Below are positions 3,523 to 31,307 of a DNA stretch of 38,871 bases, piece by piece. Source of the stretch: Halohasta salina (GTDB taxonomy: Archaea > Halobacteriota > Halobacteria > Halobacteriales > Haloferacaceae). Below the pieces are notes generated by a model. It had not been told where the DNA came from and searched no databases. It worked only from the letters and a program-made list of their open reading frames with translations. The translations under genes were made by a program, and so were the position numbers. Within the stretch, counting starts at the first letter, position 1. The number at the start of each line of letters is the position of its first letter. The stretch spans positions 1-38,871 of the forward strand of contig NZ_JAMZIE010000011.1 of assembly GCF_024178165.1 (NCBI RefSeq), in the 5' to 3' direction.

Positions 3523-4209
3523 ATGGGGCTTCATGCTGAGTTCGATATCGACTGCGAGGCTCTCCCACTTGTTGGAGTGGCAGCAAGCGTCCCTGAAGCG
3601 ACGATAACACTCGAACTGCAGTACAACCATGGAAACCGACCCGTGTTCCTCGTCACCGTTCAAGACGGCTCTCGGGAGGCAGTCGAGAACGCCTTCACGA
3701 ATGCATACGATGTTGCAGCGTGGACACTCGTCGGGCAGGCTGGAGAAACCCGTCGATACCAGATACACCCAGCGCTGAGTCTGGAGGAGCAACTCGGAGA
3801 GCATCTCGACGATATAGAAGGCCTCGAAGCCCTCGCGACGGTCGACGCGATCATCGAGCGGATCGCGGTGCTACGGGACGGATGGCGACAGACCGGCTGG
3901 TTCGCCGACCGGGACGCGTTCGGTGCGTTTTCCTCCTTTTGGCGGCAAAACGCCGGCTTCCGGTTGCATCGGCTGACCCAAGACGGGGAGTCCGAACCGG
4001 CAGGTAATGGACTTACTGATCGTCAACACGAGGCGCTTCGAATCGCCTACGAGTTGGGCTATTTCGACATCCCACGGCGGGCGTCACTAGAAGACATCGC
4101 CACGGAACTGGATATCTCTCCGTCCTCCGTCTCCGAACGACTGCGCCGAGCACAAACCCAACTCATCGAAGAGACCGTCGCGACGACGTGGCCGCCACTT
4201 CCCAACTGA
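3523..4209 (+). CDS. Bat-type HTH_10 transcriptional regulator
   Basis: A 228-residue protein. The C-terminal 55 residues (about 165-220) match the HTH_10 domain: LTDRQHEALRIAYELGYFDIPR, then LEDIATELDISPSSVSERLRRAQ. The N-terminal half is an unassigned sensor-like alpha/beta region, as in many short Bat-like regulators of haloarchaea. It ends about 95 nt before the first codon of the downstream ABC ATPase on the same strand, so it may regulate that exporter. That link is inference. Confidence 0.85.
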   Translation: MGLHAEFDIDCEALPLVGVAASVPEATITLELQYNHGNRPVFLVTVQDGSREAVENAFTNAYDVAAWTLVGQAGETRRYQIHPALSLEEQLGEHLDDIEGLEALATVDAIIERIAVLRDGWRQTGWFADRDAFGAFSSFWRQNAGFRLHRLTQDGESEPAGNGLTDRQHEALRIAYELGYFDIPRRASLEDIATELDISPSSVSERLRRAQTQLIEETVATTWPPLPN

Positions 4210-4238
4210 GTAGGACGGTTGGGGCTGCCACGGGACGG

Positions 4239-4248
4239 GTATTTAAAA
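4239..4248 (+). promoter_or_regulatory. TATA-like box before the ABC exporter
   Basis: GTATTTAAAAG lies between the regulator and the ATPase gene. It is about 60 nt before the ancestral ATG at 4305, so a leadered transcript would be expected. Confidence 0.4.
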
Positions 4249-4304
4249 GCCCCCACAGATTCGAGAATTCCCTACCCGAGTCCGTCCTGATTTCCCGATC
4301 GCCG

Positions 4305-5360
4305 ATGTCATTACAACAGCCACGACAATAGTCCGAGGCGGACGAACCCACCTCGAAGCGTCGGACTGCTATCGACGCAGACGGTGTGCATGTAACGTAT
4401 GAGGATGGAACCGAAGCCGTCCAAGGCGTCTCTCTCGACGTCAAAGAAGGCGAGTTCTTCGGGTTCCTCGGCCCAAACGGGGCTGGCAAGACGACTACGA
4501 TCAAGACCCTGGTCACGCTGCTGTATCCGACACAGGGAGCAGTCCACATCAACGGCTACGATACGAAAACCGATCCACAGGCCGTGCGCGAATCTATCGG
4601 CTACATGGCCCAAGAGACGAGTATCGACTTCGAACTCACACCCCGTGAGAACTTACGGGTAGCCTGCCGGATATACGGTGTTCCGAAAGCCCAGCGCGAA
4701 GAGCGGATCGAGGAACTGCTTGATCTCGTCGACCTACAGGACGTCGCAGACAAGCGAGCAGAAACGTTCTCCGGCGGGATGCAGAAACGTCTCGACACCG
4801 CAACTGTCCTCGTCCATCGTCCACCTGTCGTCTTCCTCGACGAGCCGACGACCGGTCTGGATCCCGAAGCACGACTTCGAGTCTGGAACTACTTCGAGAA
4901 GATCAACGAGCAGGGAACGACGGTGTTTCTCACGACGCAGTATCTCGAAGAAGCAAACGAGTTGTGTGATCGGCTGGCCATCCTGCAGGACGGTCAGATC
5001 ACTCATACCGGCACACCTGCGGCACTCAAATCAGCCGTCGGGACCGAGACGGTCACACTCTCGCTAGATAAGCCGACCGACGAGACCCAACGCCGTGCGC
5101 TGGAAGCGGTTCGTCGTCTCAACGCACTCGACGCGGCGAGGATCGAGACCACCGCAGACGGCCTCGTCATCGACGCCGACAACGCTCGTGCGGCCACCAG
5201 TGACCTCTTCACCGAGTTGGCCGCCGCAGACACCGCGGTCGACGATTTCGAGATTCGATCACCGACACTGGATGACGTCTTCCTTACTGTGACCGGCGAC
5301 GACGCTGTCGACGAGCAGCGTGAGACGGCTGAATCAACAAGCTCCGAGGTGGCTCAATGA
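4305..5360 (+). pseudogene. DrrA-like ABC transporter ATPase with an early in-frame stop
   Basis: From the ATG at 4305 the frame reads MSLQQPRQ, then TAG at 4329-4331, then continues through a normal ABC N-terminus (SEADEPTSKRRTAIDADGV) to the stop at 5358. Restart at GTG 4386 gives 324 residues with Walker A GPNGAGKT (29-36), FSGGMQKR signature (128-135), Walker B VVFLDEP (148-154) and a Q-loop-type TTQYLEEA typical of daunorubicin-resistance (DrrA) ATPases. The restart loses the first beta-strand of the ATPase fold. With the truncated permease behind it, the exporter is probably inactive, although the restart product could still be made. Confidence 0.75.
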
Positions 5361-5929
5361 GCGGCGTTACTGACGAGCACGGTCCCATCGATGGTGAGTC
5401 GGCCACGAGAGCATCCGGCAACGGATCGCCGACAGACGCATGGATCAGTTTCAAGCGGTGGCTCCTCAAGAGTCCCCGCAATCCGTATGTGACGTTCACC
5501 TCGCTTGTCCAGCCGATCATCTTCTTCGTCCTCTTGGCGGAGGTCCTCGGTGCTGTCGCTGGTGGAGCCCTAGCTCAGTCGGTCGACGGTGGCGTCTCGT
5601 ATGTGACTTATCTCACCCCGGCGATCATCATTCAGTCGGCGTTGGCTGCTGCGGCCGTCTCCGGCATCGGCCTGGTCGACGATATGGAGACGGGGATGTT
5701 CGACAAGACACTCATCTCCCCGATGAATCGGAGCGCCCTGTTCGTCGGGAAGGTACTGTCCGAACTCGTCCGGATCACCGTCCAAACGGGGATCATCCTC
5801 GGCCTCGGGTATCTCCTGTTGGGTTTCAAATCGGGCACATCCGTCGCCGGCCATCTCCAGACAGGGGTCTTCGGTGTTCTGGGGATATTCGTTATCACCC
5901 TGATCGTTGGCAGTGTGTTCATGGCGTGA
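5357..5929 (+). pseudogene. ABC-2 type permease, C-terminally truncated
   Basis: Overlaps the ATPase stop by 4 nt (ATGA), a translationally coupled pair. The 190 residues have a cytosolic N-terminus and about four hydrophobic segments (SLVQPIIFFVLLAEVLG; YLTPAIIIQSALAAAAVSGI; TVQTGIILGLGYLLLG; VFGVLGIFVITLIVGSVFM), as in DrrB/ABC-2 permeases. It stops at GSVFMA, where full-length relatives (around 250-280 residues) continue with two or more further helices. The missing 3' end lies just before the toxin-antitoxin promoter, so arrival of that module or a deletion may have cut the gene. Confidence 0.75.
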
Positions 5930-17652: not shown

Positions 17653-20600
17653 TCACACAGAGGACGATTTCAACCGGGCCATCCAAACCGATGCCAACAA
17701 CGCGACTATGGCAAGGCCAAAGCCGAATCCTGGTGTATCATCATCTGTCTCTCCTGATTCGTCCCCCTCTTCCGCAGCATTCAGATCTTCTGTCGCGTCT
17801 TCATTGATGCCGGTTGCAGTCGTTACTGCCATATGCGAGAAGTGGTCTGTACTCGCTTCTAATACGAACGCTTCGTCCGTATCTTTAACAACTTCTGTTT
17901 TGAGTGGCTCCCACTCGCCGTCGACTTCTTGCCAGATCGTGAGCGTTTCTCGATCCAGCTTTGAGAGGTCTCGCTGTGGCTTCACGACCCTCTTTAGGTT
18001 GAATCGGAGTGTTGCAGTCTCGTCTCGCAGTTTGTACGGAACCATGATCTCGTTTGCAGAAACGAGCTCCCCTGGTGGTGTCCCAGCTCGCGACGGCATG
18101 TCGCTGTAGTCTCTCACTTCGATTTCACCGGTCGTATTCTGATCATCCCAGATGACTGTCTCAATAACAGGTCGATCCAAGAAACTGCCTGGTTGGGCAT
18201 AGCTGTATCCGTCGGCGCTCTTGATGCGCCCTTTAGCGAGTGTGAGCATGACGACATCTTCAGGGTGTGGTGTGGGTAATGCCGATCGGACAAAACTACC
18301 ACTTCCACCGCCACCGCCTCCGCCACCGCTGCTACTACTGCCACCGCTACTGCTTCCTCCTGTGTTTTTCGAGTTAGAGCTATCGTCGACGTCTACCGTG
18401 ACCGTTTCTGTAGCAGTGTTACCGGCTTTGTCGGTCACCGTCAGCTCGATCTTGATTGACTCCCCATCAGACAACCCGGTCACTTCGATTTCGCTCTTTG
18501 CCGAGGTCGTCGTCGCCGTATAGCGGTTTGAGTCAACATCTGCAACGACTGCCGTTTCGCTGACGTTGATTCCCGACTGTTGATCAGTGTACTCGAAGAC
18601 GACATTAATTGGCCCGCTATCGCTCTTAATCTCTGTACCGGGTGTGACGCTTACCGAGTTGACTTCGGGAGCTGCCGTGTCGACGCCTCCTGCAGCGAAC
18701 TGACTGAATCCATCGACGGTTGCGACGAGTGCGTTTGCCGTGCTGTTGTATTCGGTTTCAATCTCGTAGTAGTCCGAATTTCCATCGTCGGACTTCATAA
18801 TCATCAACTCATCGGTGTCGAACTTCTCGACGACGTCCCGATCGAGTTCACTCAGTGGGATGTGGATACTCGCATTTTCGAGTTCGCTATCTGTGAGTCC
18901 GATATCGTTCACGTTGATGAATCCGCCACCGATCTGGTTCGGTTGTAATGCAGTCCCGGCGGGCGACGTGCGACCACTGCTTACGATCGCTTTTCGAGTT
19001 GCGGTGGACCCAACCTCCGTCTCGTTGGCGATGACACTAATTTGGCTGTTCGCGCTCGGAGAGACCGTTCCTCGTCCACCGGTCAAGTCGTAGCTTTCGA
19101 CCGACGCAGTGAGATTTTCACTAATAGAATTCCCCGTTGTGTCGACTGCTTTGACCGTGATATTGAAGATACTCACACCCGGTGTAGCGGACTGACTACT
19201 GTTGAAGTCCACAGAGGCTGTGTCTCCTTTCGCTTGGAGTCCACTCGGGATCGCTTTTGTACCCGGGCTTCTATCGCTACCATCGTCTGCTTCGATGGTC
19301 ACATCAGTAATTTCGAAGGTTTCAGATCCTTCGACGAGGAGCGTGCCACTGCCCGAAGTGAGGTTTTCAGTATCGAGCCGGATCTCGGGTGGTGTCGTAT
19401 CGATCGTGATTGGAGAGCCACTCTGTGAGACTTCTTGGCTCGCGTTGTCGACGGCCGTCGCGACCGGCGTGTAGCGCCCATCGCCAACGAGGTGGTCGAC
19501 GGGGATGTCCGTAGAGAAGTCTCCACCAGAGCTCACATCTGCCTCGACAGCCGATTTATTGCGATAGGCAGTGAAGTTGGCTTCCAGTGCGAACGAAACG
19601 CTGTCGACCGGGAGACTGCCTGCTGTGACAGTCCCATTGACAGTGACTACTTCCCCGGCAAGGTCGTGTTGTGCTTCGACCGCTGTAATCTCGGCTGGGT
19701 TGGGATCTTCGACGATGACTACTCCATTGGCGCTGGTCTGATTCGACGCGAATACGAACGTGTTCTCGCCGATATCGTCGAGGTCGGTGTCGTATTCGAA
19801 GGTCAGTTGCGTGCTTGCATCCGCATCAAGCGTTGTCTCGTTTGAATCGAGAGGCGCTTCTGACCCGTTTCGCGAGAACGTGACCGGTTGCGTCCCAGAG
19901 ACGTTCCCGATATTTTCGACGTCGACGGTCGCCGTAATCGGATCTCCAGCACTCACCGGCGACGTGATCGAAGCAACTTCGATATCGAATGTCGCCTGAC
20001 GGAGGACCGTAACAGACTGAGTCGCCGTACTGTTCGGAGTCGACACCTCGGCTGTGTAGGTTCCGTAGTCGCCCACGTCAGTTGGGAATCCAACCGACAG
20101 CGCCGTCGAGTTACCTCCGTCAAGCACGACGGACGTGTTGTTCGTAGCGAATCCGCCGATGGTAGTAGTCACGTTCTGTTCGAGCAGGAGGTCGCCTGTA
20201 TTCTCGACGAGGAAGTCGACAGTGATCTGCTCAGACTCGACTGGGGAATTGATCGCTGTTATACTGACTGCGGACTCTGCGGGCCGGAGGACCTCGACCA
20301 TTTCTGTCGACGCCCCGGTTTCGGTCTTCACTGTGACGTTCAGTTCGGGGTAGTCGGTGTCTGTGACGTTGTATTCGAATGCCACGGTCGCTTGTTCGCC
20401 CACGCCCGTTTCGGGGATGTTCCCTGCTCCAGTTTCGACGAGCGTTTCGTTGACATAGAGATCGGCGCTTCCTGGACCGCTGATGCCTCCGACGTTCTCG
20501 ACGTCGACAGTGATCGTTGCAGTCTCGTTCACCACGAACGGGTCTGTAGCCGAAGTGTTGATCGTCGGGTCGAACGAAGCGGGTTCGGCGACATCAGCCC

Positions 20601-22560
20601 AGTATTCAGTCTGCTGTGTATCTGTTACTGCAGTAATGTTGATCCGTGGGAGGTCTGCTTCGGTCGCCGTGTAGTTGAACTCGACGTCGGTAGTGTTGTT
20701 CGGGCCGAGTTCTGGGATATTATTGTCTCCTGTGACGACGAGGCTCTCGTTCACATACAAGCTGAGGTTGCCTGTATCGCGGAGATCGCCCACGTTCGTG
20801 ACTGTGACATTGAAGCTCGCTTCTTCGCCGACAACGAAAGGCTCAGAGACATTCGAGCCGTTAATCTCTGGCTGGAATTCCGCTGGCCCCGCGATTGTGA
20901 CGCTCTTGTTGTAGGTGACATCCCCTGTTTCGATGGTGACATTCTTGACGCCGGTGTCTGCTTCGGTAGTCTGGTATTCGAAGGTGAGTTCTTGAGTCTC
21001 TCCAGACGGGATTTGAACACTTTCGGATCCGATCACAGTGCCGTTGAGAGACGTCGTGACCGTCCTCGTGGCCTCATCACCGAGAACATTCACATTCGAG
21101 ATGTTGGCCGTCACAACGAGTGTGTCACCGTACTCGACACCACTCGGTGCGTCGACCGAACTAACCGTGGCGAACCCACCGGGATTGCTCAGAGCCAGCG
21201 AGTTGTATGCATTTGCGATCCCGTACCCCGAACGAGTATTCCGACCATCGGGTACCCCAACGGCGTCGGTTGCCCCCTCCCGAAGCACGTACTCGATTTG
21301 AGCGGGGGTGAGACTTGGATTGTTAGCCAGCATGAGCGCGACAATTCCACTGACGTGAGGGGCAGCCATGCTCGTACCCGACTTCCGGGTTAGCGAATCT
21401 TCATCCCAATAGGAGGCACTCCAGACGCTGTCACCTGGTGCGACAATATATGGGCTCACCTGCGGGTCTTCCCAACTGTTTTGATCTTTGGTGACGTTGT
21501 ATTCGTCCAGATTGTACGTCCCCCCGCTTGAGAACGACGGAACGTTTCTCGAACTGTCCGTAGCTCCAACACCGATGACGGGCTCGTACGCGCTAGGAAA
21601 ACCGATGTGGCCTTCTCCGGAATTACCAGATGACGAAACGACGGTGATTCCCAATGTCCGTAGATTTTGCACTTCTTCTAATTCAGATGTTGTTGGGGTA
21701 CTCGATCCGAGACTCATGCTTACGATATCCGGATCTTGTTCGGCCATCCACTGCATCGAGCCAATGATATCGAATCCGTAGCCGCTGCCGTCATATAGCG
21801 GGGTGGAATGAATGAGTCTTACATCGGGTGCTACACCGATCGCAGTGCCCGTCTGATTACCTCCTGCAATAGTCCCCGATACGTGCGTGCCGTGACCATC
21901 TGAGTCGAATGGTTCTGGGGCATTAACGCCTTCCCGGGTGTCTCCGAGTGTAAACGAGCCGTTCGGGTAGTAATAGGTGTGCCAGGCTCCCTTGTAGTTG
22001 TTCGTAGAGTCACCGTTGTTCAGTTCGAGTGAGATGTGGTTCGGATTGATTCCAGTGTCGATCACGCCGACAGTCACCCCCTCACCTTGCGTATCAAACG
22101 TCTCCCAAGCATCCGGCGCGTTGGTCTGTTCGAGACCATAGGTACCGGGATCGTCTGGCATACTCTCGGTCCCATAGGACGGGTAGGGATCAGGAACCTC
22201 GACTCTCTTATCGACCTCGACGGCGACAATCTGCGAGTGGCTTACGAGCTCGTCTGGTTGCATACGATCTGTGTCGACAGTCACTAGAATGCTATTAGAG
22301 ATCCAAAATTGCCGTTCGACAGCCACCGCATCGAGAGGCTCGAGATAGTCAATTACCGGCCTTTGGCTTTCTTTGGTCTGCTGTTTCAGGTCTTCTTTCG
22401 AGTCAAACGATTCGATCTCGGCCAATTGAATGAGGGCTCGAACATCTTCCTGGTCATGAGTGGTGTTTGTACTCTCTGTAGCGGCAACCAAACCACCACT
22501 ACCGATTATAAAAAAGATAGCAATAATAACGACAAGTATGTGGCTTAACCAGTCCTTCAT
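17653..22560 (-). CDS. Very large secreted subtilase (S8) with CARDB-like repeats and PGF-CTERM-type anchor
   Basis: 1635 residues from the ATG at 22560, supported by TATA ATATTTATAC 26 nt upstream and by the signal MKDWLSHILVVIIAIFFIIG. Domains: propeptide (about 30-130); S8 protease with Asp168 (VIDTGIN), His223 (GHGTHVSG), Asn313 (SSGNSG), Ser397 (GTSMAAPH); about five Ig-like CARDB repeats (about 460-950); further beta domains; a Gly/Ser-rich linker; a PGF-pre-PGF-like region; and a C-terminal DTPGFGFGLAIVALLA then MARLKSS tail typical of archaeosortase A substrates. Role: surface-anchored protease. Target proteins are unknown. Confidence 0.9.
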   Translation of the reverse strand: MKDWLSHILVVIIAIFFIIGSGGLVAATESTNTTHDQEDVRALIQLAEIESFDSKEDLKQQTKESQRPVIDYLEPLDAVAVERQFWISNSILVTVDTDRMQPDELVSHSQIVAVEVDKRVEVPDPYPSYGTESMPDDPGTYGLEQTNAPDAWETFDTQGEGVTVGVIDTGINPNHISLELNNGDSTNNYKGAWHTYYYPNGSFTLGDTREGVNAPEPFDSDGHGTHVSGTIAGGNQTGTAIGVAPDVRLIHSTPLYDGSGYGFDIIGSMQWMAEQDPDIVSMSLGSSTPTTSELEEVQNLRTLGITVVSSSGNSGEGHIGFPSAYEPVIGVGATDSSRNVPSFSSGGTYNLDEYNVTKDQNSWEDPQVSPYIVAPGDSVWSASYWDEDSLTRKSGTSMAAPHVSGIVALMLANNPSLTPAQIEYVLREGATDAVGVPDGRNTRSGYGIANAYNSLALSNPGGFATVSSVDAPSGVEYGDTLVVTANISNVNVLGDEATRTVTTSLNGTVIGSESVQIPSGETQELTFEYQTTEADTGVKNVTIETGDVTYNKSVTIAGPAEFQPEINGSNVSEPFVVGEEASFNVTVTNVGDLRDTGNLSLYVNESLVVTGDNNIPELGPNNTTDVEFNYTATEADLPRINITAVTDTQQTEYWADVAEPASFDPTINTSATDPFVVNETATITVDVENVGGISGPGSADLYVNETLVETGAGNIPETGVGEQATVAFEYNVTDTDYPELNVTVKTETGASTEMVEVLRPAESAVSITAINSPVESEQITVDFLVENTGDLLLEQNVTTTIGGFATNNTSVVLDGGNSTALSVGFPTDVGDYGTYTAEVSTPNSTATQSVTVLRQATFDIEVASITSPVSAGDPITATVDVENIGNVSGTQPVTFSRNGSEAPLDSNETTLDADASTQLTFEYDTDLDDIGENTFVFASNQTSANGVVIVEDPNPAEITAVEAQHDLAGEVVTVNGTVTAGSLPVDSVSFALEANFTAYRNKSAVEADVSSGGDFSTDIPVDHLVGDGRYTPVATAVDNASQEVSQSGSPITIDTTPPEIRLDTENLTSGSGTLLVEGSETFEITDVTIEADDGSDRSPGTKAIPSGLQAKGDTASVDFNSSQSATPGVSIFNITVKAVDTTGNSISENLTASVESYDLTGGRGTVSPSANSQISVIANETEVGSTATRKAIVSSGRTSPAGTALQPNQIGGGFINVNDIGLTDSELENASIHIPLSELDRDVVEKFDTDELMIMKSDDGNSDYYEIETEYNSTANALVATVDGFSQFAAGGVDTAAPEVNSVSVTPGTEIKSDSGPINVVFEYTDQQSGINVSETAVVADVDSNRYTATTTSAKSEIEVTGLSDGESIKIELTVTDKAGNTATETVTVDVDDSSNSKNTGGSSSGGSSSSGGGGGGGGSGSFVRSALPTPHPEDVVMLTLAKGRIKSADGYSYAQPGSFLDRPVIETVIWDDQNTTGEIEVRDYSDMPSRAGTPPGELVSANEIMVPYKLRDETATLRFNLKRVVKPQRDLSKLDRETLTIWQEVDGEWEPLKTEVVKDTDEAFVLEASTDHFSHMAVTTATGINEDATEDLNAAEEGDESGETDDDTPGFGFGLAIVALLASVWMARLKSSSV

Positions 22561-22577
22561 ACAGTTCGCAGAACTGG

Positions 22578-22592
22578 ACAGTATAAATATCC
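22578..22592 (-). promoter_or_regulatory. TATA box of the subtilase gene
   Basis: Minus-strand ATATTTATAC (22581-22590) is centred about 26 nt before the ATG at 22560, with no Shine-Dalgarno between. This is a leaderless arrangement and decides against the upstream start at 22629, which would begin inside an IS relic. Confidence 0.65.
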
Positions 22593-22616
22593 GGGTCTTA
22601 CCTATGTCCGTAAATT

Positions 22617-22639
22617 GCCTCGGGGTCAAGCCCCGAGGC
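22617..22639 (-). ncRNA. TnpB 3'-end hairpin (relic)
   Basis: GCCTCGGGG (22617-22625), loop TCAAG, CCCCGAGGC (22631-22639): a perfect 9-bp stem spanning the stop region of the decayed tnpB on the minus strand. A near copy occurs at 38612-38634. It is the omega-RNA-type end of an IS200/IS605 element and sits directly upstream of the subtilase promoter. Confidence 0.6.
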
Positions 22640-23168: not shown

Positions 23169-24125
23169 TTACTTGAACAGATCCTTGCGTTCGGACTCCG
23201 AGAGTCTAACATCCGGGTGTGCGTGGGCCGAACACTCTTCGCACTCGTAGGAGCCGCTGCCGGCTTCGAACTGGTAAATCGGATAGCCGAAGAGGAAAAA
23301 CGCATCCTCTTGGTGGCGTTCGATGACCGCGTCGGCGGTCGCGCCACAGCCCGGACAGTAGTCCTCGTCCATCGCCGGGACCTGGTAGGTGATCTTCTTC
23401 CGGCCCATGAACGCCTCTCTGTAGGCTGCGCTCTGTGATGTCTTGATGAGGTCCTCGACGGGGAAGTCGTCGACACTCACCGTGTTGTCGTGGCCGGGTT
23501 CGGTAGCGACGGTGACGTCGGTGTAGGCGCTTACTTCGACGGTGTTGTTCGACCCGACGAGGTGGAGCCGAATGCTGCCGTGGCCGTCGACCCGGATGTC
23601 GTTGTTCCACCCGGTCAGATAGAGTTCGAACTCCGCTTCGGTGTTTTCGATCCGAACCGAGTTCCGCCCGCCGGTGACCGACACTCCGGTGTCGGGCTCG
23701 GTGACGCTCACTTCGCGATCCCAGCCGGTTATACTCTCGTCGTACTGGTTCCGCGGGTGTGGTTCGGTGTCACTTTCGTCGTGGAACCGCTGTTCGTCGC
23801 CGATGATCTGGAGATCGCCATCGACCGCTTCGTGTTCGATAAATACGTCTTCGGCGTCGACAACGACGACGTCGCCGCTGACTCCGCCCGATTCGAGATA
23901 GCCGTCCTCGATCGTGCCGCTGATCTCGGTCTCGATGTCGCCGATCTCGGCGGTCCCGCCGGCCGGCGTGTTGGTGTAGACGTATTCGGCGTTCAGCACC
24001 TTTAGATCGCCGTCGACGGCCCCGGACTTGACGTGGACGTTTTCGGGGTCGACGAGTTTGACTGGTGGCTGTTCGTCACCGTTGAGCGTAATATCGCCGG
24101 AGTAGGTTGTCGAAGGGGAACTCAT
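23169..24125 (-). CDS. Bactofilin-like beta-solenoid protein with C-terminal zinc ribbon
   Basis: 318 residues from the ATG at 24125; a TATA-like CTAAATA 26-32 nt upstream supports it over the ATG at 24134. Residues 1-110 repeat a V-x-GAVDGDLKV / GGVSGDVVVVDAEDVFI pattern like bactofilin-type right-handed solenoids. Residues 130-225 continue with GGRNSVRI, LTGWNNDIRV, GSNNTVEV, DNTVSVD turns (DUF3060-like). Residues 255-305 hold CPGCG and CEECS, a zinc ribbon. No signal or TM segment, so cytosolic. It is last in a five-gene minus-strand cluster. Function unknown; a scaffold or membrane-associated polymer is possible. Confidence 0.7.
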   Translation of the reverse strand: MSSPSTTYSGDITLNGDEQPPVKLVDPENVHVKSGAVDGDLKVLNAEYVYTNTPAGGTAEIGDIETEISGTIEDGYLESGGVSGDVVVVDAEDVFIEHEAVDGDLQIIGDEQRFHDESDTEPHPRNQYDESITGWDREVSVTEPDTGVSVTGGRNSVRIENTEAEFELYLTGWNNDIRVDGHGSIRLHLVGSNNTVEVSAYTDVTVATEPGHDNTVSVDDFPVEDLIKTSQSAAYREAFMGRKKITYQVPAMDEDYCPGCGATADAVIERHQEDAFFLFGYPIYQFEAGSGSYECEECSAHAHPDVRLSESERKDLFK

Positions 24126-24186
24126 TGGTATCAACTAACTGTGAGTCGTGTATTTAGTCATGAGTGGTGTGTTTTTGATCGTGATA

Positions 24187-26358
24187 TTAGATTTCGCTGC
24201 GTTTGATCAGGGCATAGAGGAACAGCCCCGCGAGGATCACGTTCATGTAGACGAGGAACGCGGAGACGAGTCTGGCAGCGGGGCCGATCGGCCCGATGTT
24301 GCCGTAGCCGATCGTGAGGAACGTGATATACGAGAAATACAGGTTCAACCCGAGTGTCTGGAGCCCATCGAACGTGGCGATTTCGGTGAGGGCGATCTGT
24401 CCGGCCCCGGTTTCGAACGGCGAGCCGCCGACCGCAAACAGGAGGCCGGCAAACAGCGGAAACAGGATGAAGACAGTCGTGATCCGGTAGAGCCGCAACC
24501 CGTAGCCACAGGAGATCCCAAGAAACAGGTTCTCGATGCCTCGGAGCGCATTCCGCCCCCGTGTCAGCAGAGCTTCGCTCGAATCGGCGGCGATCTCGAA
24601 GAACTTCCGGCGGGCGTGCTGTTGGCGTTTGACGCGGAACTCGCCGGCAGCCTTTACGTTGCTCTGAGCCGAGGCGCTGTTTTTCGCCTTGAGGTACGTC
24701 TTTTCGATGACGTCGGGTGTCATCTCGACGGTAAACTCGTAGGGACAGCTCCCGTCGTCGAAGCTGTGGAGGTTCCAGTCGTTGCGGTCTAGATAACCGG
24801 TGTGGTCCGAGAAGGTGAACTCGTCGAAGGTCGTATCGCAGAACCGCACGTAGTCGAGGAGTTCCCGTTCGTCGGCCGGGTTCTCCGCGGTCAGTTCGAC
24901 ATCGCCGACCGTCGACCGTGTCAGATCGAACCGAACCCAGCCGTCTTCGGGTTGGACGACACGCCCCTCGGCGATGGTCGCCTCGGTGAAATCGAGATAC
25001 GTATCATCACCGAACGACTGGGCTTTCAATCGAAGCGAGTCGGTGAACTCCGCGTCAGTAAAGTCCGCGCTCTCTTTGAACGCGACCTCGGTGATGTCCG
25101 CCGCGGTACAGACGATATCGCTGAAGTCGACAGCACCGACAAACGTCGCGTTCCGGAAGACGGCATCGTCTTCTAAATGGTTGGTTCCACCGTTGAATAT
25201 CGCACCACGGAAGGTCGTCGGACCGCCGAAGACGGCGTTCGTGAACACGGCATCGCCGTCGAAGATCACTTCATCGAAATCGGCTTTCCCACCGAAACGG
25301 ACGGTTTCGAACGTCACGTCGTCGGTGAACTCACACCGCTCGAAGACCACGTCGTCGACGAATTCGGCGTCGCTGAAGTTCGAATAGCCGAACCGTCCCC
25401 GTTCGAAGGTCACGTGATCGCCGAACTCCGCAGCGGCGAACGACACGTCGTCTTCGAGTAGTGCCGTCCCGCCGCGACACTCGACACCGCGGAAGGTTGC
25501 TCCCTCAGCGAAACGCGTGTCGTCGAACAACACGTCCTCTGCGAAAGTGACCTCGTCGAAGTCAGCAGTCGCGGTGAACTCGCTGCCGGTGAACACGACC
25601 GTCCCTGCGGCTTCGACCTTCTCGAAGACGGCCTCGCCGTCGAAGCGGACGTCCCTGAACTCGATGTACTCGAAGGTGGCGTACAGAAACGAAACATCGC
25701 CGTCGAAGACGGCCCCCGAGAACGTCGTGTTGTCACCAGTCTCGTTGGATCGGCCATAGAACTGCGTCCCCTCGAAGCTCGCTTCGGCCTCGAAGACTGC
25801 GTCGGTGAAGCTCACGTCGTTGTCGAAGACGACCTCGTCGAAGATCGCTTGCTGGCTGAAGGTGGCTTCGGTAAACTCGGTGTCGTCGCCCGTAACCGTC
25901 GCCTCGAAGCAGTCGACCGTGTCGGTAAAGCGGGTGTCCGTACAGAGCACGCCGTTTTCGAAATCACAGTTGTCGGCCAGCAGTCCGCCGACGGTGCTGT
26001 GCCGCAGGTCGAGTTGTTCTTCGAACCGCCCGTGAAGGACGGAGATTCCGCCGGGAATCGTCGTATGCCGGAGGTCGACCGGGTGTTGGTCGTCGCTTTC
26101 GATGTCGACGTAGTCGAGATCCAACTCGGGGAAGTGGGCCCCGATAAACGCCCGCGTGGCGTCGGTGTCGTCTTTGAGTTTCCGGACGAGAGACGCGGTG
26201 AGATCGGCCGCCGAAATGTCGGCGGCCTCGCGCTCGTCGGGGGCCATGTGGAACGGGCAGTAGTCACTCGATGCGTGTGACTCGTGTGGACACGACCAGC
26301 GGCGTTCGATCGACGTCGAGTCGTGTGCTGCGGGATCGAACTCGTAGGCACAGGTCAT
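24187..26358 (-). CDS. Pentapeptide-repeat protein fused to a two-TM K+-type channel
   Basis: 723 residues. N-terminal CPHES...CPFH is a possible zinc site (22-38). About residues 90-500 are pentapeptide-type repeats (A/V-x-F-x-x, for example VTFERGRFGYSNFSDAEF), a quadrilateral beta-helix. A basic helical linker follows, then TM1 (about 624-645), a pore helix and selectivity filter TIGYGN (682-687), and TM2 (about 697-718), an Ion_trans_2 channel module. The repeats lie on the cytosolic side and may gate the pore or dock partners. The stop-to-start gap to the upstream DUF2617-like gene is 47 nt. Confidence 0.9.
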   Translation of the reverse strand: MTCAYEFDPAAHDSTSIERRWSCPHESHASSDYCPFHMAPDEREAADISAADLTASLVRKLKDDTDATRAFIGAHFPELDLDYVDIESDDQHPVDLRHTTIPGGISVLHGRFEEQLDLRHSTVGGLLADNCDFENGVLCTDTRFTDTVDCFEATVTGDDTEFTEATFSQQAIFDEVVFDNDVSFTDAVFEAEASFEGTQFYGRSNETGDNTTFSGAVFDGDVSFLYATFEYIEFRDVRFDGEAVFEKVEAAGTVVFTGSEFTATADFDEVTFAEDVLFDDTRFAEGATFRGVECRGGTALLEDDVSFAAAEFGDHVTFERGRFGYSNFSDAEFVDDVVFERCEFTDDVTFETVRFGGKADFDEVIFDGDAVFTNAVFGGPTTFRGAIFNGGTNHLEDDAVFRNATFVGAVDFSDIVCTAADITEVAFKESADFTDAEFTDSLRLKAQSFGDDTYLDFTEATIAEGRVVQPEDGWVRFDLTRSTVGDVELTAENPADERELLDYVRFCDTTFDEFTFSDHTGYLDRNDWNLHSFDDGSCPYEFTVEMTPDVIEKTYLKAKNSASAQSNVKAAGEFRVKRQQHARRKFFEIAADSSEALLTRGRNALRGIENLFLGISCGYGLRLYRITTVFILFPLFAGLLFAVGGSPFETGAGQIALTEIATFDGLQTLGLNLYFSYITFLTIGYGNIGPIGPAARLVSAFLVYMNVILAGLFLYALIKRSEI

Positions 26359-26405
26359 GGGTATCTCGACCCGATTGGTGGATTGGTAGACATGATGGAT
26401 TGTAG

Positions 26406-27014
26406 TTATTTCAGTTTCGTATTTGGAGTTTCGTATGTAGGTTCGCCACCGACAGGAGCTGCCGGGAGGTCGGTGAATTCGTGTTCTGAATACAGCGCCA
26501 GATCGTACTCCGGGTAGGTGTGGTAGGTCTCGTAGTTGGTGGTCGACTGGCAGTTGATCGTCGTATAGGCCTGCGGATCGAATCGGTAGGCGATGTCGAA
26601 CGGTTCGGGACCCGGAAACGCCGACAGCGGCTCTCGGCTGATCGTCGTCGTTACGCCGATCGATCCGAACCGGTAGCGGCCGGTGTGTATCTCCTGTCGA
26701 TCACGGCCAGCGGGCTCGGTCGACCGGCGGTCCGTGATTGGTCGGCCAGCGGACTCGGTCGACCGGCGGTCCGTGACTGGTCGATGCGTGTCTGTCAGCG
26801 GAACTGTCGTCACACGCCCCTCTCGGATCGGTTTGCACGACAACAGTTCGTGAAAGCCGAGTTCCGGCGCGCCGATGTAGTGTGAGTCGCCGATCACGGC
26901 GAAAGTGAACTCGGTCCCGAAGAACTGCCGCTGTACCCGCCGCTTGATATCGTATTCGGCGAGCGGTGGTTGCTCGGCCGTGTATGCGAGGTAAAGGGAT
27001 TCGGGTGGACTCAT
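26406..27014 (-). CDS. DUF2617-like protein
   Basis: 202 residues. SLYLAYTAEQPPLAEYDI, FTFAVIGDSHYIGAPELGFH, ELLSC, FDIAYRFDPQAYTTINC and YETYHTYPEYDLALY resemble the DUF2617 family, cytosolic proteins of unknown activity. The ATG overlaps the stop of the upstream spermidine-synthase-like gene by 4 nt (ATGA), so translation is coupled. Residues about 78-103 are a tandem duplication (TDRRSTESAGR / TDRRSTEPAGR) that inserts a polar loop into the middle of the protein. Confidence 0.7.
   Translation of the reverse strand: MSPPESLYLAYTAEQPPLAEYDIKRRVQRQFFGTEFTFAVIGDSHYIGAPELGFHELLSCKPIREGRVTTVPLTDTHRPVTDRRSTESAGRPITDRRSTEPAGRDRQEIHTGRYRFGSIGVTTTISREPLSAFPGPEPFDIAYRFDPQAYTTINCQSTTNYETYHTYPEYDLALYSEHEFTDLPAAPVGGEPTYETPNTKLK
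26706..26783. repeat. 39-bp tandem duplication inside the DUF2617-like gene
   Basis: Units 26706-26744 and 26745-26783 are adjacent and differ at two positions. The length is divisible by three, so the frame is kept and 13 residues are duplicated. It looks recent. Confidence 0.9.
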
Positions 27015-28810
27015 TGTTTTTCCTTTTTGACCTTGGTTTCGACGATCAGCTCGTAGTTCGGATCGAAGACGCTGTTGGGCTCGACGCCGGCGTACTGCGG
27101 CGTCTCCTTCCAGTCGACCGATGTGTACTGTTCGCTGTGGTCACGAACGTAAGCGGTCCCGTTCGCCGGGGTGATAGTCGACCGGGGTTCGTCGGGGGCG
27201 AGCACGAAGAACCGCTCGCCGAGTTGGTCGGTGCCGTCGACATCGCGGTAGGCGTAGTAGGCCATCCGGTGGTCGAAGCCGGCCTCGCGGACGGTGTTCA
27301 TGTAGGCTTTGTTGTGTGGGCCGTAGGTGTAGCCCGAATACCCCCACGTCACGACCAGTCCCTCCTCCGAGAGCCGATCGGCGAGCATGCTGTAGAACTC
27401 GACGGAGTACAGATGGAGGAGGTCGTCGCTCTTGGCGCCGGGGAGATCCAAGAGGACGAGGTCGTACTCACGGTCAGTCTCCTGCAGATACGTGTAGATG
27501 TCCTGCTGATAAACGGTCAGATTGTCGTACTCGTAGGCGTCATCGTGGTATTCTGCGAGGAACGCGCTGTCTTTGCTCCGATCCATGAACGCCCCATCGA
27601 GGTCGACTTGGTCGACGCTGACGTCGTGGTCCCGGAGGTAGTTCGCCGCGATCCAGTCGCCGCCGCCGACTAGCAACACCTCGGTTTCAGTCGAGTTTTC
27701 GTACATCGTCATCGGGACGTCGACGAGCCCGTGATGATAGGAGTCGACCCAGCTGTCACACAGTTGGATCGCCGAATCCAGCCGCAGACAGGTGTCCGAC
27801 GCGCCGGAAAACAGTCGATTCTCCGATTCGCCGTTCCACGATCGTTCATAACGGACGACCTGCTGGTTGCGGGTCGTATACTGGTCGGCGATCGACGCCG
27901 ACACCGTGTTTTGTGGGTGTTCGTCTTCGATCAGCGACTCCATGTAGTAGCCCGTCAGTTCGTCGTCGACCGCCTGATGCTGGACACTGACGCCCGCGTA
28001 GACGCCGGTCAGCAGCAAACAGGCCACTAGCACCGCCCGGTGTTCACGGCTGGTGATCGCACTATCGTCGGTGCTGGTCCTCTCCAAGCGGTTGCTGATC
28101 GCCCATCGGTCGCTGAACCGTGCCACGAACAGTAGGGCAGCGAGACAGTTCAGGAGTGCGAGTACGAACACCGACGGAATCAATCCGAGTCGTGGGTAGA
28201 GCACGAACACGTAGATGAGTGCCCCGAGGAGCCCACCGAGGTAGTCCATCGCCAACACGGTCGAGTCGGTGTCGTACGCCGTGCTCTCCCGGTCGGTGTG
28301 AAACGCGACCGAGAGCAGCCGGAACGAGCCGTTCTCGACGACCCGCCCGAGTCGGTCGACCCAGCCGGGCGTCGACGTCGAGCCGGCCTCCGACCGGACC
28401 ATCGACAACAACACCGGCAGTTCGAAGCCCGACAGCACGCCGACGACAACGACCGGCAGGCGGGCGGCGACCTGTAAGATCCCGTTCGGGAGGATCTCCG
28501 GGAGTGCGGCGGTGTTCAGCCAGAGCACGAACAGGAAGCCGACCGGCGCAGCGAGTGCCAGATACACCTCCGTCCGGAAGAAGTTCGCGTGCTGGGCGTC
28601 CTCGAAGTGGCGAACGAGAAACGAGCCGACACCGAGCGAGGAGAAAAACAGCCCGATGGTGAGTCCGTACTGTGTGACGGTCCCGCCGTACATCACGGTC
28701 AGCAGTTCCGAGTAGACGAGTTCGTAGGCGAAGCTACAGAGGGCGACGAGACACGCGATCACGTGTAACGTCGCCTGCTTGGAGACGCCCGACAACGTAG
28801 CATTCGACAT
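27011..28810 (-). CDS. Membrane spermidine-synthase-like protein
   Basis: 599 residues: seven predicted TM segments (about 15-35, 48-66, 82-100, 115-137, 187-205, 208-230, 258-276), then a soluble Rossmann-like domain similar to polyamine aminopropyltransferases. Visible are the region LRLDSAIQLCDSWVDSYHHG, GGGD (382-385), VDLD (402-405), LLDLPGA (453-459) and LYSVEFYSMLADRL. The usual DS(T/S)DP catalytic segment is DLPGA here, so classical spermidine synthesis is uncertain. In bacteria such membrane forms often neighbour DUF2617, as here. First large gene of the coupled cluster. Confidence 0.85.
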   Translation of the reverse strand: MSNATLSGVSKQATLHVIACLVALCSFAYELVYSELLTVMYGGTVTQYGLTIGLFFSSLGVGSFLVRHFEDAQHANFFRTEVYLALAAPVGFLFVLWLNTAALPEILPNGILQVAARLPVVVVGVLSGFELPVLLSMVRSEAGSTSTPGWVDRLGRVVENGSFRLLSVAFHTDRESTAYDTDSTVLAMDYLGGLLGALIYVFVLYPRLGLIPSVFVLALLNCLAALLFVARFSDRWAISNRLERTSTDDSAITSREHRAVLVACLLLTGVYAGVSVQHQAVDDELTGYYMESLIEDEHPQNTVSASIADQYTTRNQQVVRYERSWNGESENRLFSGASDTCLRLDSAIQLCDSWVDSYHHGLVDVPMTMYENSTETEVLLVGGGDWIAANYLRDHDVSVDQVDLDGAFMDRSKDSAFLAEYHDDAYEYDNLTVYQQDIYTYLQETDREYDLVLLDLPGAKSDDLLHLYSVEFYSMLADRLSEEGLVVTWGYSGYTYGPHNKAYMNTVREAGFDHRMAYYAYRDVDGTDQLGERFFVLAPDEPRSTITPANGTAYVRDHSEQYTSVDWKETPQYAGVEPNSVFDPNYELIVETKVKKEKQ

Positions 28811-28881
28811 TCTATGAGTGACTGACTGCCTGTCGGTCGACCAGCGCCAGATTCCAGAGGGGCCTCACTCGTCGGGGGCCG

Positions 28882-29652
28882 TCAGATCCGGGGTGAGACT
28901 TTCCATCGTTCGGTGATCTCTTTGCCGTCGACGGTCTGTTCGACACGGAGATCGATACACTCCCAGCCGAGATCGGTGCCTTCGTCGGGGCCCTCGGCGA
29001 CGACGATGTTGGCACCGACCCGATACCAGCCCGGTTGCACATCTCGGACCGAGGTTTCGATCTCCTCGTTGGTCGGGGAGTCGTAGGTGTCGTCCCAGTT
29101 GATCGGTCCGGGACCGGGATCCTGCTCTTCGAAGCGGGCGTTCGAACCGATGTATGCGACTCCGAGGGTGGCGATGTCGACCGGATACTGGGATACTTCG
29201 TCGTCGTGATCGTTGTACCAGCCGTTGGTGTAGGTGCCACCCCAGAACCACGCTCGACCGTTTGCGGTCCGCGGGGCCGAACTGTAGCCGCCGCTCCCGC
29301 GGCCGGTCGCGCCACGACCCTTTGCGGCCCGGGCCCTCCCGACCGGCGAGAGGGCGGTGAGCGCCGACAGGCTCGCCGTCGACTCGGTGTTCGTTCCGTC
29401 TCCGGAGCCGGCCGACCCGTCGGCGTCGAGATCACGCCGGGACTGTACCCAGCGGTCCGACTCGCCGAACGGGTCGATCCTGAGCGTCGACCCGTCGGCC
29501 GAGAGTTCGACATCGTCGATTACGTTCGACTTCCGTGGTGGTGGCTCGTTACTGCTCCCGATACAGCCCGCGAGAGCCGTCAGCCCGCCAGCCGCAACGA
29601 TGCCACTCCGTTTGAGCAGCGTGCGTCGATCGATAGGTTGTGTAGGACTCAT
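28882..29652 (-). CDS. Tat-dependent lipoprotein, family not recognised
   Basis: 256 residues from the ATG at 29652. A start 22 codons upstream would bury the signal. Twin-arginine RRTLLKRSGIVAAGG and lipobox LAGC give a Tat-exported, lipid-anchored protein. A low-complexity Ala/Gly/Arg stretch (GRGATGRGSGGYSS) precedes a beta-rich C-terminal domain (GRAWFWGGTYTNGWYND, GWYRVGANIVVAEGPDEG, ITERWKVSPRI). It is the first gene of the minus-strand cluster; a TATA-like TTTTTAGTA lies at about 29700-29708. In bacterial relatives of this neighbourhood a DUF4247 protein often occurs; I cannot show that this is one. Confidence 0.75.
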   Translation of the reverse strand: MSPTQPIDRRTLLKRSGIVAAGGLTALAGCIGSSNEPPPRKSNVIDDVELSADGSTLRIDPFGESDRWVQSRRDLDADGSAGSGDGTNTESTASLSALTALSPVGRARAAKGRGATGRGSGGYSSAPRTANGRAWFWGGTYTNGWYNDHDDEVSQYPVDIATLGVAYIGSNARFEEQDPGPGPINWDDTYDSPTNEEIETSVRDVQPGWYRVGANIVVAEGPDEGTDLGWECIDLRVEQTVDGKEITERWKVSPRI

Positions 29653-30374: not shown

Positions 30375-30842
30375 TTAACCTCCAAGAAATCTGTTTAGTT
30401 CGCTAAATTCGTCGGGTGAGAGAATGACCTCGGTGTCGAACGCATCAAATCGTTCGAAATCGTCGTCGATCGTCAATACGGTATCCACCCCTTGGTCTAT
30501 CGCTACCTGCGCATAGTACCCGTCCCATCCACCAACGTTTGCTTCACTTGCCTGCGAAAACCCGCTCCGAACTACGTCCTTGGGCATCCCGTCGTACCAG
30601 TGGATTCGCTTCGCGTCCATGAAATTCTGGAGCAGCCGAGATGCGTCTGCATTTGACTGTCCGTAGTACGTCGTCAGGACGGTGTGGGCTCCGAAGAGCG
30701 CAGGGTACGGAACAACGGCATTTATGTCGCCAGCGATGGCATCTTGGATGTACGAAAGCGCAGACTCACGGACTGGAGCCGCTGTGTGTGCGAGGGCTAT
30801 CACACCGACATCAAAAAGATACGATCGATCAGTGTCACTCAT
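30375..30842 (-). CDS. PIN-domain toxin, VapC-like
   Basis: 155 residues from the ATG at 30842, overlapping the antitoxin stop by 8 nt. Longer upstream starts lie inside the antitoxin gene and are rejected. An N-terminal Asp sits in YLFDVGVIALAHT, and late acidic residues in WDGYYAQVAIDQGVDTVLTI then DDDFERFD. The middle PIN glutamate is not obvious (VVPYPALFGAHTVL), so the active site may be atypical. Expected role is RNA cleavage, restrained by the AbrB-type partner. Confidence 0.8.
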   Translation of the reverse strand: MSDTDRSYLFDVGVIALAHTAAPVRESALSYIQDAIAGDINAVVPYPALFGAHTVLTTYYGQSNADASRLLQNFMDAKRIHWYDGMPKDVVRSGFSQASEANVGGWDGYYAQVAIDQGVDTVLTIDDDFERFDAFDTEVILSPDEFSELNRFLGG

Positions 30843-31119
30843 CGCTGTTTTCCTCTGTCCCTCTTCGAACCGCGTCTCTGTGCTTCTGGGCAATGGGGTC
30901 AGCCCCTTCGTCAATCGGTCTCGTCTCCTCTCGCTCGGAAGACGTTTCGGCGATGAGTCGATTCATGCGTTCGATAATCTGTTCGGGGCTGTTTTCAGGT
31001 TCTACGACTGCTTTCCCGTCTTCTTCGCGAATCGCTACTTCTGTACCGGGAGTAATACCGAGATCTTCTCGCACCTTCTTCGGGAGGACGATTCGCCCCT
31101 TTGAATCCACCTTGGTCAT
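30835..31119 (-). CDS. AbrB/SpoVT-type antitoxin
   Basis: 94 residues from the ATG at 31119. The swapped-hairpin AbrB domain is at the N-terminus (MTKVDSKGRIVLPKKVREDL, GITPGTEVAIREEDG, KAVVEPE), followed by an acidic helical tail that should bind the PIN toxin. A palindrome TCCCACT-TGG-AGTGGGA just upstream fits autoregulation. The operon is antitoxin first, toxin second, overlapping. Confidence 0.88.
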   Translation of the reverse strand: MTKVDSKGRIVLPKKVREDLGITPGTEVAIREEDGKAVVEPENSPEQIIERMNRLIAETSSEREETRPIDEGADPIAQKHRDAVRRGTEENSDE

Positions 31120-31120
31120 A

Positions 31121-31153
31121 TTCCCACTTGGAGTGGGATTGAGTATAATCGTT
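31121..31153 (-). promoter_or_regulatory. Antitoxin promoter and palindromic operator
   Basis: Minus-strand TATA-like GATTATACTC (about 31143-31152) and a perfect 7-bp inverted repeat TCCCACT-TGG-AGTGGGA (31122-31138) lie directly before the ATG at 31119. The palindrome covers the expected transcription start, as in autorepressed toxin-antitoxin operons. Confidence 0.65.
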
Positions 31154-31211
31154 TGGTTCAGACCACTGCTTCCACCTCTCAGAGCAAATGAAGAAACCGT
31201 AGTACCGGGAA

Positions 31212-31307
31212 AAGCTAATCTCACGAGAGTTCGTCTGTAACTGGGTGGTCTCGGACGTCCATCCCTCAAATTCAGGGGTTTCGACCCTACGAGGGTTCGT
31301 CTGTAAC
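31212..31307 (-). CRISPR. Two-repeat degenerate CRISPR unit
   Basis: On the minus strand, repeat 1 (31307-31278) begins GTTACAGACGAACCCTCGTA and ends GGGTCGAAAC. Repeat 2 (31241-31212) begins GTTACAGACGAACTCTCGTG and is degenerate at its 3' end (AGATTAGCTT), as last repeats of arrays often are. The spacer between them (31242-31277) is exactly 36 nt, the same as in the plus-strand mini-array at 34136. It lies 93 nt upstream of the AbrB start on the same strand. Confidence 0.75.

Follow-up and report, generated by a model that had tools for sequence, protein, structure and literature searches.

The five-gene locus and its conservation

The window, the whole stretch of DNA analysed, covers 38,871 nucleotides of the Halohasta salina genome. 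At positions 23169–29652, reading of the ORFs gives five intact, co-directional genes on the minus strand, as are all motifs within them described below. In gene order these encode a Tat-exported lipoprotein (28882–29652, 256 aa), MSS, which has an N-terminal membrane domain followed by an aminopropyltransferase domain (27011–28810, 599 aa), a DUF2617 protein (26406–27014, 202 aa), a pentapeptide K+ channel (24187–26358, 723 aa) and a solenoid-zinc ribbon protein, ZnR (23169–24125, 318 aa). The intergenic distances from the lipoprotein gene to the ZnR gene are 71 nt, −4 nt (an overlap), 47 nt and 61 nt, and these coordinates agree with the first-pass annotation, which had described five intact genes in one direction with such gaps. 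The same annotation called the cluster GC-rich, and this holds when its 58–65% is compared with the 49–58% found over 6–23 kb of the window, but the parts at 2–6 kb and 33–38 kb are equally GC-rich; the GC contrast of the cluster with its surroundings is only partly distinctive. The H. salina genome (3.04 Mb) has one MSS/SpeE-like gene at E ≤ 0.001. The nearest named relative is Halohasta litorea, whose MSS is 86% identical and which has the five genes in identical order. Just upstream of the cluster, at 30375–31269 on the minus strand, translations suggest an AbrB-like and a PIN-domain-like protein, probably a VapBC toxin-antitoxin pair. Directly downstream, at 17653–22629 on the minus strand, is the gene of a secreted protease, subtilisin-like and 1658 aa long, which contains long repeats and has a PGF-CTERM-like tail. 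An anti-phage defence system was considered and rejected, as the PADLOC models of such systems match none of the five proteins.

The lipoprotein has a twin arginine (R9R10) of a Tat signal, a lipobox cysteine (Cys30), the conserved stretch GRGATGRGxGGYSSAP and a β-rich C-terminal part. It belongs to no Pfam family, and its AF2 model (mean pLDDT 65.6) has no PDB match at E ≤ 0.001. In the channel an N-terminus rich in Cys and His is combined with pentapeptide repeats that extend over about 500 residues (PF13576, 138.7 bits) and with a two-TM pore (PF07885, 33.1 bits), an architecture that is conserved throughout the family. Its selectivity filter, TIGYG (residues 682–686, positions 24301–24315), has invariant T682, G684, Y685 and G686. 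ZnR is probably a β-solenoid with a C-terminal ribbon of four invariant cysteines; the repeat-rich N-terminal part matches DUF3060 weakly, and the zinc-ribbon matches are weak as well. The suggestion that this solenoid forms a bactofilin-like polymer was not sustained, and a bactofilin identity is rejected, since a Pfam scan of 30 members returned only the weak DUF3060 and zinc-ribbon matches and no match to the bactofilin profile. Four ZnR relatives (loci L052, L061, L062 and L063) consist of the C-terminal two-thirds only and do not have the N-terminal third of the solenoid. At these four loci ZnR and the channel are on the opposite strand, 330–760 nt apart.

A survey of 194 haloarchaeal genomes, in which MSS was counted if full length and the lipoprotein at E < 1e-70, places the MSS, DUF2617, lipoprotein and ZnR genes in an identical set of 32 genomes and nowhere else among the 194. 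The channel family is present in all 32 of these genomes and in 10 further ones. The cluster genomes are spread over 18 of the 65 haloarchaeal genera, and a second Halohasta genome (G068) is without the cluster. The cluster is plasmid-borne in Haloarcula, Halorussus and others. In 33 neighbourhoods the order lipoprotein, MSS, DUF2617 is constant while the position of the other two genes varies: the channel followed by ZnR in 5 loci, which are those of the nearest relatives, ZnR followed by the channel in 14, ZnR divergent upstream in 8, and both genes downstream on the opposite strand in 4, with the remaining 2 loci broken off by contig ends. No sixth conserved gene was found among the 33 loci, and most of the other ORF families that recur there come from reading the five cluster genes in other frames. 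A grouping of this kind is far beyond chance. The five genes are one system, kept or lost whole, and the proposal of a conserved five-gene functional unit is upheld by this neighbourhood search. Two further observations concern relatives of single members. Six genomes without the cluster (G042, G027, G111, G152, G139 and G133) have channel relatives in much longer frames of about 1160–1390 aa, and stray lipoprotein paralogues, possibly partial or broken, are found outside the cluster at G171:C1:1542652-1543560 and G154:C7:46587-48036.

The membrane aminopropyltransferase and the possible source of its donor

Aminopropyltransferases use as donor dcAdoMet, which comes from AdoMet decarboxylase (AdoMetDC, SpeD). 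By sequence and predicted fold, MSS is an aminopropyltransferase. Its C-terminal domain scores 50.8 bits against PF01564 (cut-off 22.9), its sequence matches 1uir, 3anx and 7xif in the PDB, and its predicted structure (pLDDT 82.6) matches 1uir in Foldseek with an E value of 1.8e-11. Solved spermidine synthases use three Asp residues: that of the GGGD motif holds the aminopropyl group of dcAdoMet, another takes a proton from the acceptor, and one in the gate loop fixes the diamine at its far end (PMC10146546, PMC12812037). The first two, D385 of GGGD (positions 27656–27667) and, by alignment to 1uir, D455 of the gate-loop motif D455-L-P-G458 (27437–27448), are invariant in 31 of 31 MSS sequences. 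Position 458, the diamine-anchoring Asp site of DxxD, is Gly in all 31. The first-pass annotation had noted a changed active site with DLPGA for DSTDP. The proper comparison is with the DLPDP of the bacterial membrane synthase of Alteromonas rather than with the DSTDP of soluble enzymes; the acceptor-anchoring Asp alone is lost and the other two Asp residues are kept. The difference from bacterial MSS is one of DxPG against DLPDP. This pattern of invariant D385 and D455 with invariant Gly458 suggests that the donor chemistry has been kept and the acceptor changed, so that the acceptor of MSS is probably something other than a simple diamine. Because the diamine-anchoring Asp is invariably Gly, we do not file MSS as a spermidine synthase.

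A related protein is known from Haloferax volcanii, where HVO_B0357 is a membrane SpeE homologue with a GGGD(W/Y) motif (PMC6267482). The cluster MSS shares this motif, with GGGDW in 19 and GGGDY in 10 sequences of the haloarchaeal family, and a DUF2617 gene is present in H. volcanii too. Spermidine was undetected in H. volcanii, agmatine is the main haloarchaeal polyamine and a strain lacking HVO_B0357 showed no phenotype in the conditions that were tried (PMC5178350). In the same work Prunetti et al. found no AdoMetDC in H. volcanii or other halophiles, asked where dcAdoMet comes from and left the role of the haloarchaeal SpeE homologues open (PMC5178350). Our searches bear this out for the cluster genomes. 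The AdoMetDC family PF02675 is over the cut-off in none of the 32 cluster genomes and in 2 of the 194 haloarchaea, both without the cluster. True speD genes are rare in haloarchaea; they are seen in G139 and G090 and, near a soluble speE, at 3984–5762 of locus L108 on a Halobaculum rubrum plasmid. The eukaryotic-type family PF01536 has no match in the 32 cluster genomes, a search in which the controls gave none either. In bacteria the decarboxylase gene can be next to the transferase gene: speD directly follows MSS on Alteromonas pAMCP48-600 and is one gene from MSS on Novosphingobium p1. The gene directly after MSS in every complete haloarchaeal locus is DUF2617.

Similarity of DUF2617 to AdoMet decarboxylase

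The first-pass annotation had named the third protein DUF2617-like, and PF10936 (DUF2617) indeed matches 30 of 30 family members with a best E value of 8.8e-10; the window protein itself scores 21.6 bits, slightly below the cut-off of 22.3. None of the 30 members is over the cut-off for PF02675, and the next Pfam family after DUF2617 is AdoMet_dc, at E 0.058 in 1 of the 30. When the whole-family DUF2617 profile was compared with 177,635 PDB sequences, the sole match at E ≤ 10 was an AdoMetDC, 2iii (E 0.23). A profile of the C-terminal half gave five matches in the same set, of which ranks 1–4 are AdoMetDC (2iii at 0.064; 1tlu, 1vr7 and 1tmi at about 1), and a profile of the N-terminal half gave none. 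In profile-profile comparison with AdoMetDC the C-half reaches P 4e-7 and the N-half P 0.002, with local decoys that are partly other-frame readings of the five cluster genes. Both halves align to one AdoMetDC region, ESH-HTWPE-TC. The C-half alignment spans 31–38 columns and includes F-x-P-x-[AG]-x-T ahead of the HTxPE motif. In a null ranking of 5,294 sequences, whose null part consisted of 3,150 shuffled SpeD sequences and 2,123 local ORFs, the C-half model places SpeD at ranks 1–16 and the N-half model places Halobaculum SpeD at rank 1 (VIGESH...VELLTC against VIGxSHYV...FHELxSC). In the null test an unrelated family of local ORFs scored P 8e-4 through a bare HxxPE motif, and for this reason we rely on the PDB ranking of the C-half and not on a single alignment. 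The single scores are modest and none is conclusive alone, the best PDB E value being 0.064; it is the agreement among them that persuades. DUF2617 thus looks like a distant relative of AdoMetDC, and its C-half is very probably homologous to that enzyme.

The conserved residues of DUF2617 fall into two sets. The 30 members share five invariant residues in the first half, G42, S44, H45, E56 and C60, and five in the second, T163, H165, Y167, P168 and E169. In profile comparisons, the C-half motif H165-T-Y-P-E169 (positions 26508–26522) aligns to the HTWPE of AdoMetDC. In the weakly matching N-half, S44 of the S44-H45 motif (26880–26885) aligns to the Ser that forms the pyruvoyl group and C60 (26835–26837) to the protonating Cys; the Glu that precedes the cleaved Ser of AdoMetDC is not conserved. 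Masking of single residues against the Pfam DUF2617 model indicates weights of 4–7 bits for the first-motif residues G, S and H and for T, H and P in the second motif, 2.4 bits for the Cys and about 1 bit for each of the two Glu, including Glu169. The first repeat of human AdoMetDC contains Ser68 and Cys82, and the second His243 and Glu247. In AdoMetDC a Ser is turned into the pyruvoyl group and a Cys gives the product its proton, while processing involves a His of strand 12 and the ribose is held by the Glu that ends this strand (PMC1282579, PMC3975893). In eukaryotic class 2 AdoMetDC, two copies of the small enzyme of bacteria are fused (PMC10407285). Weaker evidence suggests that DUF2617 has an N-terminal second copy with a pyruvoyl-type Ser and Cys, as in the eukaryotic enzyme, and a direct comparison of the N-half with the C-half gave no match. 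The likeness to AdoMetDC (class 1b SpeD and the class 2 enzyme of eukaryotes) comprises HTxPE with its preceding strand and, more tentatively, Ser-His and Cys at corresponding places of the putative N-terminal repeat. DUF2617 differs in being below the Pfam cut-off for AdoMetDC, in having no pyruvoyl Ser in the better-matching C-half and in fitting its two putative repeats into about 170 residues, which is much shorter than class 2 AdoMetDC.

The DUF2617 gene is present in H. volcanii and Corynebacterium glutamicum, and Mycobacterium tuberculosis has it as well (PMC11237479). Viral contigs gave no relatives, and plasmids outside the haloarchaea gave no convincing match.

A candidate membrane aminopropyl-transfer module

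Bacterial MSS operons have been tied to the PSP response, with variants that contain DUF2617, lipoproteins and K+ channels, by Ravi et al. 2024 (PMC11237479). The haloarchaeal cluster resembles their DUF2617/DUF4247 variant in having MSS, DUF2617 and a lipoprotein, and a K+ channel occurs in a related operon type (PMC11237479). MSS stands beside DUF2617 and the lipoprotein in all complete haloarchaeal loci. The kinship with bacterial MSS/DUF2617/DUF350/DUF4178 operons, which had been pointed out in the first-pass annotation, is corroborated by that paper (PMC11237479) and by the Alteromonas and Novosphingobium clusters. The differences are also clear: the haloarchaeal loci are without DUF350, DUF4247 or another conserved neighbour such as PspA, and have the pentapeptide K+ channel and the solenoid-zinc ribbon protein instead. 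The lipoprotein does not match DUF4247 and DUF350 is over the cut-off in none of the 32 cluster genomes, so both memberships are rejected, and the idea that a K+ channel takes the place of some bacterial partners is in line with these counts. The clusters of Alteromonas pAMCP48-600 and Novosphingobium p1 are similar in that a membrane aminopropyltransferase has a decarboxylase gene adjoining or one gene away, but the gene is a true speD, not DUF2617, and the partners are TelA, DUF4178, DUF350, band-7 or an amine oxidase. Another product of the Alteromonas operon is lipoprotein-like and has a tail rich in Gly, Arg and Ser, a possible parallel to the Gly/Arg stretch of the haloarchaeal lipoprotein. 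Within the searchable literature, which leaves most subscription papers outside, the haloarchaeal five-gene system and the link of DUF2617 to AdoMetDC appear to be new.

The explanation that we favour, at somewhat under an even chance, is a membrane module for aminopropyl transfer that supplies its own donor, uses an unusual acceptor and is coupled to a K+ channel. DUF2617, as a divergent relative of AdoMetDC that probably consists of two repeats, would convert AdoMet to dcAdoMet, and the membrane-tethered MSS, whose invariant donor-binding Asp points to the use of dcAdoMet, would move the aminopropyl group to an acceptor other than a simple diamine. Acceptors that could fill this role, none of them favoured, are polyamine-like molecules (for example agmatine), lipid head groups and protein amines. 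The Tat lipoprotein would act at the outer face of the membrane, and the channel and the zinc-ribbon protein may link K+ flux to the product or to the state of the membrane. What we infer is that DUF2617 is a decarboxylase with an N-terminal repeat, which acceptor is used, and what the lipoprotein, channel and ZnR do; it is through gene linkage alone that these three are connected with the chemistry. The sensing or repair of membrane or ionic stress suggested in the first-pass annotation gained no support. The more specific proposal, that DUF2617 is an unrecognised pyruvoyl AdoMetDC family of two degenerate copies in haloarchaea and Actinobacteria, which feeds dcAdoMet to MSS for non-spermidine membrane aminopropylation, is put forward a little more tentatively.

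Homology of the C-half alone would also fit a protein that has the AdoMetDC fold but senses or regulates through AdoMet or dcAdoMet, or decarboxylates another amino acid, while MSS uses AdoMet or another donor. The weak support in the N-half leaves room for such a role, and neofunctionalised SpeD homologues are common, for example the SpeD-derived arginine and ornithine decarboxylases (PMC10407285). The invariance of S44, H45 and C60, with S and H strongly weighted in the Pfam model, speaks against it, as do the invariant donor-binding Asp of MSS and the finding of no other dcAdoMet source in the 32 cluster genomes; we consider it unlikely, although a real contender. That the resemblance to AdoMetDC is a chance matter of the short HTxPE motif, with DUF2617 an unrelated β-sandwich enzyme and the chemistry of the cluster unknown, is less probable still. 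The P value reached by a bare HxxPE agrees with it, and DUF2617 has been predicted to be a β-sandwich enzyme with two conserved His, in a description that, in the accessible part of its source, does not mention AdoMetDC (PMC11237479). A chance motif accounts poorly for a match of 31–38 columns that takes in F-x-P-x-[AG]-x-T, for AdoMetDC at the first four of the five PDB ranks and for a DUF2617 gene that adjoins an enzyme needing dcAdoMet in genomes without SpeD.

A different division of the cluster would make the lipoprotein, MSS and DUF2617 one pathway and the channel and ZnR co-travelling membrane-stress genes on a mobile stress island. The patchy distribution over genera, the plasmid locations, the 10 genomes with the channel family and no cluster, and Haloferax larsenii, in which the channel is ~160 kb from the rest of the cluster on the same plasmid, are all compatible with this arrangement. 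Loose co-travel would be expected to show a loss in some genome, yet the channel and ZnR are found in 32 of 32 cluster genomes despite at least three rearrangements, and we regard this division as improbable.

If DUF2617 is the missing decarboxylase, the question of the dcAdoMet source (PMC5178350) would become directly testable in a model archaeon, H. volcanii, since HVO_B0357 and a DUF2617 gene are both present there. An enzyme function could then be assigned to a Pfam family that has had none, in Actinobacteria as well. Membrane aminopropylation would also be tied to a K+ channel, which would bear on how membranes are controlled in saturated salt.
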